Shown: positions 7,241 to 12,013 of the stretch, piece after piece | How positions within the stretch are numbered: position 1 is the stretch's first letter | Layout: every line of letters begins with the position of its first letter | Assembly: GCA_020696885.1 (NCBI GenBank) | Contig: JAJFMS010000011.1 | Coordinates: forward strand, 1-13,919 | Reading direction: 5' to 3' | Length of the DNA: 13,919 nucleotides | Source: Armatimonadota bacterium | Lineage (GTDB): Bacteria; Armatimonadota; SYMT01 | Made by a program: the position numbers and the translations under genes | The notes under the pieces: generated by a model | The model's database searches: none | The model's input: the letters and a program-made list of their open reading frames with translations, nothing else | Told to the model about the DNA's origin: nothing

Positions 7241-8176
7241 TCAGGCTAGCTGGCCCGGTAGCTGGAAGCCTTCCGACACGGCATCCGGCATCCGCTCCGC
7301 TGCCAGCATCTGCTTGAGCAGCTCGCTCTTCTCCGGCACCAGCGTGATCTGCGCCTGGCCGGTAACGAGGTTCTGCGTCTCCAGGATCTGGAACATCGCG
7401 TGCAGCACCTCGGGGTCCTCCGAGATCTCCTGCAGCGCGGCCCCGACGATCTGCGGCCGCATCGCCTGCGCCTTGGCAAACTCCACCGCCGCCTGCCGCT
7501 CTGCCGTGCTGGTGATGATGCTCACCTGGTTGGCGCCGCCCTGGCGGATGGCCGAGGTCACCTGCCGCAGCCGGTTGACTACCTTCTCCTCGATCTGCTG
7601 GATCATCCCCATGTCCCGGAAGTGGACCTTCCGGATGTAGACCGAGCCGAGCCGGTAGCCCCATTCGTCCGACTTCGGGGAGACTTCTTGCCGCACCACC
7701 TGGCTCATGGTGTGGCGCGTCTCCAGCATCTCTCCCAGCGGCATGTTGCTCAGGCAGCGCACCGTGGCGTTGCTCACGTTGGCGGAGAGGGAGCCGCGCG
7801 GGTCCGTGTTCTTGAAGAGATAAGACACCGGGTCGCTGATGTACATCTCATACCAGATGCCGATGCCCATCGGCGCGCCTTCCTCGGAGTTTACGGGCTG
7901 GCTGCGCAGGTACTGCTGGTCCAGGCGCATGTCCAGCACGTGGCACCGGCCCAGCCAGTTCACGATGAGCGCCCGCGGACCGAGCTTGAACCAGAGGAAG
8001 TAGAGGCCCGGCTCGTAGAGCACGTCGATGACCTTCCCGAACAGGACGTAGACGTGGCAGCGGCCTTCCTCCACGACGGTGTAGGCGCCGAACGAGCGCG
8101 TGAGCCCCGCGAGGATCGGCATCAGGATGAAGAGGCCGAAGAAGGTGCCCAGCATACCCCAGAAAAACTCGTTCAT
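7241..8176 (-). CDS. SPFH/band-7 (HflC-like) membrane protein
   Basis: The product is 311 residues. One N-terminal membrane segment (about 4-26, FFWGMLGTFFGLFILMPILAG) is followed by an SPFH domain: VVEEGRCHVYVLFGKVIDVLYEPGLYFLW (written in part) is the usual opening, and RLGSVYIRKVHFRDMGM is the typical later region. A helical, coiled-coil-prone part comes next, with AERQAAVEFAKAQAMRPQIV and the usual ILETQNLV and ITLVPEKSELL tail. Family members such as HflK/HflC, stomatin and prohibitin form large ring or cage assemblies on the inner membrane and restrain membrane proteases or organise lipid domains. The start ATG overlaps the stop of the upstream SPFH gene (ATGA) and has a GGGAGG site nearby, so the two are translationally coupled and probably make a hetero-oligomer. 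Which protease or lipid it works with is not shown. Confidence 0.9.
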   Translation of the reverse strand: MNEFFWGMLGTFFGLFILMPILAGLTRSFGAYTVVEEGRCHVYVLFGKVIDVLYEPGLYFLWFKLGPRALIVNWLGRCHVLDMRLDQQYLRSQPVNSEEGAPMGIGIWYEMYISDPVSYLFKNTDPRGSLSANVSNATVRCLSNMPLGEMLETRHTMSQVVRQEVSPKSDEWGYRLGSVYIRKVHFRDMGMIQQIEEKVVNRLRQVTSAIRQGGANQVSIITSTAERQAAVEFAKAQAMRPQIVGAALQEISEDPEVLHAMFQILETQNLVTGQAQITLVPEKSELLKQMLAAERMPDAVSEGFQLPGQLA

Positions 8177-9192
8177 CGGTCGCCTCCCGATACTTCCACA
8201 ATCGCCTTCCGGGCGCGGTTGTAGAGCTTTAGCCGCACGTTGCGCAGGTAGATCGGCAGCGTGTCCGGACCGCTGCGCTTCAGGCCCCGCAACTGCTCCG
8301 CCAGGGCTTTCAGCGGCTCGGCTTCAGCCTGTGCATTGAGCGTCTCGATCTCCACCGCGCGCTTGGACTGCACGATCCGCTGGTCCGCGGAGGCCTGCGC
8401 GAGACTGATGTCCGACGACACATGGTTGTGCGCCGTATTGATGGCGGCGAGCGCGGACTCCACCTCGGCCGGCGGGTCGATCCCGGTGATCAGAGAGGCG
8501 TCCAGCACGATGCCGTAGCGAGCCACGGAAGAGAGGCACTCCTGCTCCATGTGCTCGTTGAGGTCGCGCAGGTTCTTGCGCAGGTCGTTGATGGAGACTC
8601 CGGAAACCGCACTGGCGTCCGCCGGCTGGGAGGCCAGCATCAACTGCACGCCGTCCGGGGTGTCCTTGGCCGCCGGCGCCTCGAAGTTGGCGATGCGCTG
8701 GCGGAGCACGGAGATGAAGTAGCCCATCACGTGCACCAGCGGCTGCTTTACCCCAAACAGGTAGGCATACAGGTTGCGGTCCGCGATCCGGTACCGGATC
8801 TGGCCGCTGAGGCCGGTGTTCAACTGGTCCTTGGTGACCGCGTCCAGGAACTGGCCGTTGCGGTTGGCGGTGGGGTCTTCCGGGTCATACGCCATGTTGA
8901 TGGTCTGCGTGGCGATGGAGACCTTGTAGACCCGCTCCCACGGCCACTTGAAGTAGGGCCCGCCTGGCATGATCACCCGGACCTGCGGATAGCGGTAGCG
9001 CTCGCGCTCGTCCGGACGCAGCCGCTCCGCGATCGGGTCGTCCAAGGTGGTCAGGTGCTGAATGCGCTCGGCTCGCCCGAAGACGGTTTTTACCGCCCGC
9101 TCATTCTGGGCCACGGTATACAGACCGGCCAGGAAGTAGCGGACGAGGAACCAGGCCACGAAGCCGAACACGCTGCCGATGAGAAATGTCAT
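8173..9192 (-). CDS. SPFH/band-7 (HflK-like) membrane protein
   Basis: The product is 339 residues. An N-terminal membrane segment (about 2-27) leads into VAQNERAVKTVFGRAERI, the typical start of an SPFH domain. The domain continues to about residue 255, with the strand VIMPGGPYFKWPWERVYKVSI and the segment SINDLRKNLRDLNEHMEQECLSSVARYGIVL. A coiled-coil-like stretch rich in Ala, Glu and Gln follows (LAQASADQRIVQSKRAVEIETL). It is the first gene of a two-gene unit; its TGA overlaps the ATG of the second gene. The layout resembles hflKC, but similarity to true HflK is only family-level, so no symbol is given. The ATG at 9192 follows an AAGGA-like site about 8 bases upstream. Confidence 0.88.
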   Translation of the reverse strand: MTFLIGSVFGFVAWFLVRYFLAGLYTVAQNERAVKTVFGRAERIQHLTTLDDPIAERLRPDERERYRYPQVRVIMPGGPYFKWPWERVYKVSIATQTINMAYDPEDPTANRNGQFLDAVTKDQLNTGLSGQIRYRIADRNLYAYLFGVKQPLVHVMGYFISVLRQRIANFEAPAAKDTPDGVQLMLASQPADASAVSGVSINDLRKNLRDLNEHMEQECLSSVARYGIVLDASLITGIDPPAEVESALAAINTAHNHVSSDISLAQASADQRIVQSKRAVEIETLNAQAEAEPLKALAEQLRGLKRSGPDTLPIYLRNVRLKLYNRARKAIVEVSGGDR

Positions 9193-9508: not shown

Positions 9509-10753
9509 CTACGACCCGTTGCACCAGCCCCGAGGGTAGCCGTAGAACCACTGCGTGGGTGGCAGGCGGTCATCCGCATCCGCGAGCGGGTTGAGGGTAA
9601 TGAGCGACCCCACCTGCGAGGTGGGGGAGCCGGTGTGCATGTTCGGCTGCATCGGCGACTGCGTGTGGGTGCCCAGGCTCAGCAGCTCGAACCGCTCGAA
9701 ACGGCGCGCGGCGGAGTCGTAGACGGCGCTGCCGATCAGGTTGCCCCGGTAAGAGCCCTGGTTCCACTGGGTGGTCGCCTTCAGCTCCAGGTCACCGGTG
9801 ATCCGCACCGTTACCCGGGAGCCCTCTACCTGGGTGACCGTGGAGGTGAGGTCACCGCGCCGGATGTCGCTTGCCTGCCAGGGGCTCTGGGACTGCACCA
9901 GGTGCCCCAGCGTGACCAGGCGCTCCAGCACCGGACCCCGCACCGCGGCCCGGGCGCCGACCCGCCGCTCCGACGGCACCCATCCCGTGAGCTCATCCTG
10001 CCGGTACCAGAGGCGGTCGATGGAGTAATACAGCGGGTTCCGGACATCGAACGAGGTCATAGACGGGAACGGATAGCTCCGCTTCACCACGCGCAGGTCC
10101 AGGCTGCCGGCCGGCTTGCGGAACATGTCGGACGGCACGGAAAGCCGGTCGCGCTTCGGGTCGATGGGGGTGGCCAGCACTCGCTCGCTGCGCGGCATGC
10201 GGCGGTACTCCGCCAGGGCCCCGCGGAGCAGCCGCAGCGTGGTATCGGCGTCCGGATCCGGCCAGCCGGCGTTCAGCCGCCCGAGCATCCGGCCGCTGGA
10301 GGTCACCGCGTAGATGCCCTGGTGTAGACCCTCGCGCTGGCCCTGGAACATCTGCATCAGCAGCCGGTACTCCAGCTTGTGCTTCTCGGGATGCTGGCGG
10401 TACTCCACGTCGTTCGAGACGACCGGCACGAAGTTCTTGCGCACTTCTTCGATGAAATCGGGGCGGGACCAGACAAACTGCCGGGTCTTCACACCGTTCT
10501 GTCAGCAGTTTCCTCGCGGGTCGCCGAAGTACAGCCACAGGACCAGCGGCTTGTCTTCCTTCTGGGCCTGCACCACGCCGTCCAGCACGCGCTCGTTCCA
10601 GTCCACCTGCTGAAAGCGCAGGTCTCCGGGCCGCAGCTCTACATGCTTTCGCACCTCGGCGTAGTTCTGGTCGGTAAGCCGCTCCGGAGCGGCGGCCAGC
10701 GCCAGCCCCGCCTGTGCGAGCAGCAGCGGTACGAGAAAGAGGGAACGCTTCAT
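9509..10753 (-). CDS. Candidate selenoprotein: exported thioredoxin-fold protein with a Cys-Sec (TGC-TGA) motif
   Basis: One frame runs from the ATG at 10753 to a TAG-TAG at 9511-9506, broken only by a TGA at 10504-10502. Read as selenocysteine, the product is 414 residues. Residues 1-21 are a signal peptide (MKRSLFLVPLLLAQAGLALA). Residues 52-190 look like a thioredoxin fold of the DUF255/thioredoxin_7 kind: KEDKPLVLWLYFGDPRGNC-U-QNGVKTRQ, then FIEEVRKNFVPVVSND, then QGIYAVTSSGRMLGRL. Cys83-U84 falls exactly at the redox-active turn after the first core strand. Residues 200-414 form a beta-rich domain that I do not recognise. A TAGGAG site lies 10 bases before the ATG. The downstream frame could restart only at a GTG 12 bases past the TGA, which has no ribosome-binding site. 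Alternatives are a recent nonsense mutation or a sequencing error. I infer an extracytoplasmic thiol/selenol oxidoreductase; the substrate is unknown. One gene spanning the TGA is near certain, Sec insertion likely. Confidence 0.75.
10467..10504 (-). promoter_or_regulatory. Possible bacterial SECIS hairpin after the in-frame TGA
   Basis: Bacterial SECIS hairpins lie inside the coding sequence just after the UGA, with the apical loop roughly 16-37 nt downstream and a G early in the loop. Here GACC (10487-10484) can pair with GGUC (10470-10467), enclosing a 13-base loop that begins CGG, 18 nt after the UGA. An alternative is AGAC/GUCU in the same place with the loop CCGGCAGUUU. Both stems are only 4 bp, so this is compatible with a SECIS but is not independent proof. 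Confidence 0.3.
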
Positions 10754-10881
10754 CTCCGGACGGCTCCTATCCGAACGCTTACTTACTCGTAGGCGAAGAA
10801 GCCGGCGAGGTTGTTCCGCACTCCACCGAATGGATGACCCTGCGGGCGGAATCCAGGGTGGCCCTTGCTGCGCGCACCGGT

Positions 10882-11132: not shown

Positions 11133-11912
11133 CTACCCCGAGCTATGCACGGGCTCCGGCAGGTCGTCCCGTAGGGCGCGCTTCTCCCAGGAGACCAGAC
11201 GACCCCGGCCATTCACCAGCTCCAGGCGCGCGATCCCCGCGTAGTAAGCGTGAGAGCGGGCCTGCAGCACCGGCACCCCTTCTACCCAGGTGGGCTCCGT
11301 CAGGTCCGTGTGGCTGTGGCCGCCGATGAGGAGGTCCACCTCCGGGCAGGCGGCAGCGAGGGCCAGGTCCTGGCGATAGCCGATGTGCGTGAGGGCGATG
11401 AGCACGTCCACCTGGGGCCGCAGCAGCACCGCCTGCTCGCGGGCGAGCTTGAGCGGGTCGTCGAACCAGTAATCGCAGAGCGGCTGCGACCACTGCTTGC
11501 GGGTGAACATCGGCACCGTCACCCCGAACACGCCGATCCGGAGGCCGTCTTGCTGCAGCACTACGTGCGCCTGCACCGGCGCTGGCGCGTTCCCCTTGGC
11601 GGTCAGGTTGGCGGACAGCACCGGAAACCGGGCGCGGTTGATCTTGAGCGGGAAGCACTCTTTGCGCGGGTGCGTCTCCCGGTTCCCCAGGCACATCGCG
11701 GCGCACCCCAGCTCGGACAGCATCTCGAGCACCGGCTCGCCGCCGAGCCGGAAGCCCAGGTTCCCGGCCGTCACGGTGTCTCCGGCGTCCAGGTACACGC
11801 AGCCCGGATGCTCCGCCAGGAGCGCCCGCAGCCGCTCCCGCGCCCCCGCAGCCGGGCCACGCTCCGCCCCCAGGCGGCCGTGAGTGTCGTTGGTATGAAT
11901 GAAGGTGAGCAC
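11133..11912 (-). CDS. UshA/5'-nucleotidase-like metallophosphoesterase, catalytic domain only
   Basis: The product is 259 residues. The calcineurin-like motifs are in order: Asp9 and His11 in NDTHG, Asp45 in LDAGDT, Asn77 in GNRET, His176 in LTHIGYRQD, and His199/His201 in GGHSHT. They supply a complete two-metal site, and the spacing matches UshA/5'-nucleotidases. The C-terminal substrate-binding domain of full 5'-nucleotidases (about 500 residues in all) is absent, and there is no signal peptide, so a cytoplasmic phosphoesterase is likely. The GNHEFD motif, whose His and Asp are the catalytic dyad in UshA, reads GNRETH here. The frame opens with GTG, and MLTFIHTNDTHG is exactly the family start, so this start is firm even though no Shine-Dalgarno sequence precedes it and it abuts an 8-bp repeat tract. 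The substrate is unknown; nucleotides or other phosphoesters are possible. Confidence 0.9.
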   Translation of the reverse strand: MLTFIHTNDTHGRLGAERGPAAGARERLRALLAEHPGCVYLDAGDTVTAGNLGFRLGGEPVLEMLSELGCAAMCLGNRETHPRKECFPLKINRARFPVLSANLTAKGNAPAPVQAHVVLQQDGLRIGVFGVTVPMFTRKQWSQPLCDYWFDDPLKLAREQAVLLRPQVDVLIALTHIGYRQDLALAAACPEVDLLIGGHSHTDLTEPTWVEGVPVLQARSHAYYAGIARLELVNGRGRLVSWEKRALRDDLPEPVHSSG

Positions 11913-11976
11913 GTGTTCAGGTGTTCAGGTGTTCAGGTGTTCAGGTGTTCAGGTGTTCAGGTGTTCAGGTGTTCAG
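11913..11976. repeat. Tandem array: eight perfect copies of an 8-bp unit (GTGTTCAG)
   Basis: Eight uninterrupted copies fill 64 bases, ending on the base before the GTG start codon of the minus-strand phosphoesterase, where the unit reads CTGAACAC. Each unit carries a TGA and 8 is not a multiple of 3, so all three frames are closed in the tract; it is not coding. It occupies the space where the ribosome-binding site and perhaps the promoter of that gene should be. Confidence 0.95.
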
Positions 11977-12013
11977 GAAGCAAGCGCTGTTTTGCAGGTA
12001 GGTGGTTGCTGCT

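Follow-up and report, generated by a model that had tools for sequence, protein, structure and literature searches.

The Armatimonadota contig segment analysed here, a window of 13,919 nucleotides, carries on its minus strand (10753..9509) a gene for a thioredoxin-fold protein, whose frame runs from an ATG at 10753 to a TAG at 9511-9509 and holds a single in-frame TGA at 10504-10502. Read through that codon, the gene is complete from ATG to TAG, as judged from the frame and from near-full-length alignments in six out of six named genomes of relatives, and specifies 414 residues with the TGA at residue 84. This UGA almost certainly encodes selenocysteine (Sec, written U in motifs), and a secreted selenoprotein, working by the mechanism proposed below, is very probably the best overall explanation of the locus.

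An earlier note, drawn from the letters of the window, had reported one frame broken only by a TGA right after a Cys codon. Inspection of the frame bears this out: the TGA stands directly 3' of the TGC codon of Cys83 (10505..10507, like all features of this gene on the minus strand), within the motif GDPRGNC-U-QNGVKTRQFVW. The ribosome-binding site that the note placed before the upstream part is likewise visible by eye as a likely AGGAG (10764..10768) ending 10 bases ahead of the ATG, the 20 bases preceding which are CGGATAGGAGCCGTCCGGAG. Residues 1 to about 21 (MKRSLFLVPLLLAQAGLALAA; 10691..10753) form, judging their pattern by eye, a probable signal peptide, and on this basis the protein is probably exported. 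The ATG-initiated frame is nested in a longer open stretch beginning at 11212, and alignments to the six named relatives start at residues 1, 1, 2, 14, 23 and 23 of the window protein. The downstream piece comprises 327 codons counted from its first GTG (residue 88), four codons past the TGA, and, as the note had it, no Shine-Dalgarno (SD)-like site precedes this GTG in the window gene. The G+C content at third codon positions is high on either side of the TGA (0.83 and 0.91). Since TGA ends five of the ten other window genes checked, this organism uses UGA as an ordinary stop and does not read it through everywhere.

Conservation of the in-frame TGA

Two in-phase frames around one stop are possible by chance in GC-rich DNA, but a TGA at the same codon in every named relative exceeds chance. 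These relatives come from matching two peptide patterns to genomes of 84,980 species. Six loci resulted, of which five are titled Armatimonadetes or Fimbriimonadaceae and the sixth just 'bacterium'. All six carry the TGA at the same codon and are 42-47% identical to the window protein. Over seven relatives, identity is 37-53% before Sec and 42-47% after it, and in each of the four pairs examined, changes at third codon positions outnumber those at the first and at the second position by at least two to one, before as well as after the TGA. This similar identity and the third-position excess on each side indicate the same kind of protein constraint before and after the UGA. The homologues that the earlier note had proposed to look for, with a TGA aligned to residue 84 and conserved flanks, therefore exist in six out of six cases.

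A search of 5.8 billion proteins retrieved the window's own fragment and 12 relatives, one of them labelled as an Actinomycetota metagenome-assembled genome. All 12, at lengths of 300-327 residues, begin no earlier than the fourth codon past the UGA position, and a UGA would presumably lie upstream of each.

The breadth of the family was assessed by searching the window protein against 291 genomes of the first relative's phylum, taken as Armatimonadota on the strength of the relatives' titles, and taking every matched place, which gave 88 loci in 54 genomes, the six named relatives included. An in-frame TGA lies at or near the motif in 82 of the 88, although in one of these (L116) the TGA picked by the script is the wrong one. 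The majority of paralogues have the motif W-x-M-N-G-H-P-x-G-C-T-U-N-N-G; the window subfamily (10 loci and the window itself) has G-D-P-R-G-x-C-U-Q-N-G, and the nine of its members included in the 42-row tree form one clade with a support of 100/100. Cys stands at position -1 of the UGA in 14 of the 82 UGA loci, at -2 in 65 and at neither in three. All 82 have Gly or Ala three positions after Sec, where CxxC proteins have Cys.

Six loci have no TGA. In four of them (L092, L095, L107 and L111, the third aligned by eye), Ser or Asp occupies the Sec position and the neighbouring Cys is missing too; L100, a distant relative, has Cys there in a CDDC motif, and the match of L115 is too weak to judge the residue. 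Of the kin of L100, P0016-P0018 share CDDC and the fourth, P0019, starts past the motif. No Cys in place of Sec was seen inside the window subfamily, the only Cys forms being the distant L100 and P0016-P0018. Trp or Arg at this position, which the earlier note had named as evidence against its proposal, occurs in none of the 88 loci, which include the four with Ser or Asp, the one with Cys and the unjudged L115.

Three genomes (G016, G025 and G078) have four matched places each, with a TGA in all four for G016 and G025 and in three for G078, where the remaining one is the Cys form L100; this family alone may give certain members of the phylum a large selenoproteome. Moreover, two distant relatives, L104 (G044) and L116 (G064), share a GRC-U-GG motif and may represent a further selenoprotein family.

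Hairpin and selenocysteine machinery

Downstream of the UGA lies a hairpin resembling a selenocysteine insertion sequence (SECIS; 10467..10487), with 8 base pairs including one mismatch, the loop GUU at 10476-10478 and 23 nt between UGA and loop. For bacterial SECIS elements, a figure legend in a 2026 review (PMC13188914) gives a loop of 3-9 nt, a stem of 4-16 bp, a G in the first two loop positions, a spacing of 16-37 nt and a minimum free energy of at most -7.5. The window hairpin falls within these bounds (spacing 23, loop GUU, 8 bp, -13.1 kcal/mol). Folding of the UGA and the 42 nt after it was compared with 100 rounds of synonymous shuffling. All 11 subfamily genes agree with the SECIS model, where the shuffles average 3.1 and peak at 6, and so do 69 of the 82 family genes, where the shuffles average 25.6 and peak at 37. 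The mean folding z is -1.03 at 83 UGA sites and -0.11 at 150 other sites of the same genes (p 9e-11, a value inflated by kinship, as related sequences are counted as independent in these hairpin statistics); z is below zero at 72 of the 83 UGA sites and p is under 0.05 at 16. In one hairpin class, the stem Arg codon is AGA or AGG in 21 of 23 members, whereas in the remainder of these genes 68 of 733 Arg codons are of that kind.

The earlier note had also proposed looking for selA, selB, selD and tRNA-Sec, and all four are present in each genome of the six named relatives: selA, selB and selD score over their cut-offs, curated in the case of selB, and tRNA-Sec reaches 68-74 bits (cut-off 47). 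The selD gene itself contains a TGA in five of these six genomes, as do 10 of the 12 selD genes over cut-off. Across the phylum, selB is found over cut-off in 141 of 291 genomes; in a test of co-occurrence, it was found in 44 of the 50 genomes with a UGA family member (one of which, G014, rests on a weak match row) against 97 of the 241 others. Four of the six UGA genomes without selB have selA, selD and tRNA-Sec (66-81 bits), which suggests incomplete assemblies. Conversely, in G116, G150 and G151, whose only matched relative is UGA-free, neither selA, selB nor selD exceeds its cut-off. The 49-bit tRNA-Sec match of G116, just over cut-off, was taken for a serine tRNA because there are several such weaker matches per genome. 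No tRNA gene was found within the window.

Several observations weigh against selenocysteine at residue 84. Taken singly, the window hairpin is no stabler than its own synonymous shuffles (z -0.04), 37% of which also satisfy the SECIS model; its stem has one C-U mismatch, and its stem Arg codon is CGG rather than AGR. The base pairs of the hairpin covary only slightly, as most of them are invariant, 13 of the 82 family genes fail the model, and the kinship mentioned above affects the statistics as a whole. As to machinery, the evidence comes from relatives' genomes and not from the source genome. Among the six UGA genomes in which selB is missing, G033 and G076 also have no selA, selD or tRNA-Sec over cut-off, and G115, whose only matched relative is UGA-free, has the whole machinery, with a selD that is UGA-free as well. 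Furthermore, Cys forms are nearly absent, so that the usual argument from Sec/Cys pairs is weak, and three UGA members have no Cys at -1 or -2.

Set against these points, the UGA-84 position is conserved, its flanks evolve as one protein, a SECIS-type hairpin follows it, and the machinery is encoded in the genomes of the named relatives. The selenocysteine proposed by the earlier note is thereby strongly supported.

Fold, proposed mechanism and competing explanations

The predicted structure models the N-terminal half as a thioredoxin fold of the DsbD-gamma/AGR type (approximately residues 46-189; 10187..10618), as the note had anticipated, with Sec84 just ahead of helix 85-93, at the start of the active-site helix; residues 1-18 have a predicted local distance difference test (pLDDT) score under 50. 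In this model, the UGA splits a single domain, which agrees with the note's remark that the downstream part begins mid-domain. The fold is that of the DsbD gamma and Thioredoxin_7 kind, without the CxxC, UxxC or CxxU active site, which is replaced by CU in the subfamily and by CxU in most paralogues. In place of the cis-Pro before strand 4, sequence alignment to 3f9u puts Gly146, which is invariant across the 42-row family alignment. The beta-rich C-terminal half was rightly regarded by the note as an additional domain (residues 200-414; 9512..10156), and it has no confident structural match.

Cys83, whose counterpart at -1 or -2 is present in 79 of 82 family members, is the likely partner of Sec84, a pairing favoured because the four relatives with Ser or Asp in place of Sec also lack that Cys. 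According to the proposed mechanism, SelB and tRNA-Sec would decode the UGA as selenocysteine with the aid of the hairpin, and the protein, once exported, would serve as an extracytoplasmic thiol/selenol oxidoreductase. The nucleophile would be Sec84, which takes the position of the first Cys of CxxC at the N-terminus of the active-site helix; Cys83, in lieu of a Cys three residues after Sec, would close a vicinal selenenylsulfide and release the product, and the beta-rich domain would probably bind a substrate or partner. That thiol/disulfide or peroxide chemistry, rather than the handling of soft metals, is the job of the protein can be held with about even confidence.

The strongest competitor leaves the UGA as selenocysteine and changes only its use, with an extracytoplasmic Cys-Sec pair that binds or transfers soft metals or metalloids such as Hg and As. 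It is a possible but less probable function, which gains from the vicinal CU motifs listed for the organometal-related SaoL, SaoC and HgcA in the available parts of the review (PMC13188914), from the Gly or Ala rather than Cys at +3 and from Gly146 at the cis-Pro position. It fits poorly with a thioredoxin fold holding Sec at the canonical nucleophile position; moreover, a Pfam scan of the ten other window genes showed no family of metal resistance or metal transport, and no telling gene neighbour is common to the window and the five relatives compared.

The remaining explanations deny selenocysteine itself. Reading of the UGA by another tRNA, for example as Trp, or plain read-through has nothing specific in its favour beyond a frame that stays open past the UGA, and is very unlikely given that TGA terminates half of the other window genes checked, that a SECIS-type hairpin stands at the right spacing, that UGA members co-occur with selB and that the five judgeable UGA-free relatives carry Ser, Asp or Cys and not Trp. 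Slightly less credible still is a stop at the UGA followed by a restart, which would yield an exported short peptide and, separately, a protein of 327 residues: the GTG four codons past the UGA in the window would allow it, but that GTG is missing in all ten subfamily relatives, in which the first start codon comes 24-72 codons past the UGA, an SD-like match precedes the first start in just one of 11 genes, and the two products would divide one thioredoxin domain. Finally, a nonsense mutation, pseudogene or sequencing error, which in one genome would look alike as a lone stop in an otherwise open gene, is refuted for the family by the conserved TGA (six of six named relatives, 82 of 88 loci), runs against the protein-like constraint on both sides, and can practically be dismissed.

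Known families, genomic neighbourhood and significance

The selenoprotein was compared with the models of NCBIfam (June 2026) and Pfam, none of which scored over cut-off for the window protein or ten family members. The closest NCBIfam selenoprotein model, VPGUxxT type 2 (NF041383), also describes a thioredoxin-like (seleno)protein and matches weakly over window residues 49-113, around Sec; however, the VPGU motif is missing from the window protein, which scores 12.1 bits where the cut-off is 275; L100, the distant Cys form, scores 26.6. The Trx7/PDZ domain-containing (seleno)protein (NF041199) is, to go by its name, likewise thioredoxin-like with Sec, but the window protein is unmatched at E<=1, L100 obtains 18.1 bits against a cut-off of 300, and the motif in the review table is CxxU, in contrast to CU or CxU here (PMC13188914, available parts). 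Likewise, Thioredoxin_7 (PF13899) leaves the window protein unmatched at E<=1, and the best of ten members attains 19.8 bits against 27. In comparison with the DsbD gamma, 3f9u, AGR2-AGR3 and DsbH folds, the two Cys positions of CxxC are occupied by Sec and Gly, respectively, the partner Cys precedes Sec, and a beta-rich domain is added.

The same parts of the review list CU and CxU motifs for other selenoproteins, so the spacing alone is not new. The thioredoxin-like selenoprotein Sec.1 (PF13192) has the CxU spacing of most paralogues here, and a Cys before Sec in a thioredoxin-like selenoprotein therefore has a precedent; PF13192 matches neither the window protein at E<=1 nor any of ten family members at E<=0.1. 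None of the 119 families and subfamilies in Table 1 of the review, as far as available and compared by name, motif and domain identifier, fits the family (PMC13188914). No paper on such a family was found in a literature judged mostly from titles and the starts of abstracts, with subscription papers thinly covered. Among the families that could be checked, the earlier note's view that this protein lies outside the described ones thus holds: it is a thioredoxin-fold selenoprotein belonging to no named family tested, set apart by models, motifs and names. It is rated here as a new selenoprotein family, marked by a Cys before Sec in a fold like that of DsbD gamma, by an additional domain and by Sec forms that are unusually dominant.

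On a broader scale, the evidence leans modestly towards the window protein being a branch of a large selenoprotein superfamily, found mainly in Armatimonadota in the data searched, with Sec as the usual, and probably ancestral, residue and with very rare replacement by Cys. In this superfamily, members without Sec would also be without its partner Cys, the Sec machinery being missing too in three of four genomes, and CU or CxU would replace CxxC as a reversed selenenylsulfide site in an exported thioredoxin fold.

Other genes of the window provide the surroundings. Two SPFH/Band_7 genes with a 4-base overlap (7241-8176 and 8173-9192, minus strand) follow the selenoprotein gene on its own strand, downstream of it. 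The product of 8173-9192 shares 80-81% identity with proteins encoded in four of the phylum's genomes, which makes it very probable that the source organism belongs there. Of these four genomes, G016 and G025 have selB over cut-off and G007 and G022 do not. A perfect tandem array of GTGTTCAG (11913-11977, 8.1 copies) is situated between a Sua5 gene and the start of a calcineurin-like phosphoesterase gene, and a proteasome-subunit-like gene (PF00227; 3880-4641, minus strand) and a transglutaminase-like gene (PF01841; 4912-5781, plus strand) are arranged divergently.

The family adds a well-populated group of selenoproteins, with an in-frame TGA in 82 of 88 loci of one phylum, whose 12 closest database proteins are C-terminal fragments and which no Pfam or NCBIfam model over cut-off describes. 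With Sec forms dominant and Cys forms rare in the data searched, it offers a test case for why Sec is retained. Furthermore, the family could give Armatimonadota a reason to keep Sec decoding, as in G016 and G025, each with a TGA at four matched places.
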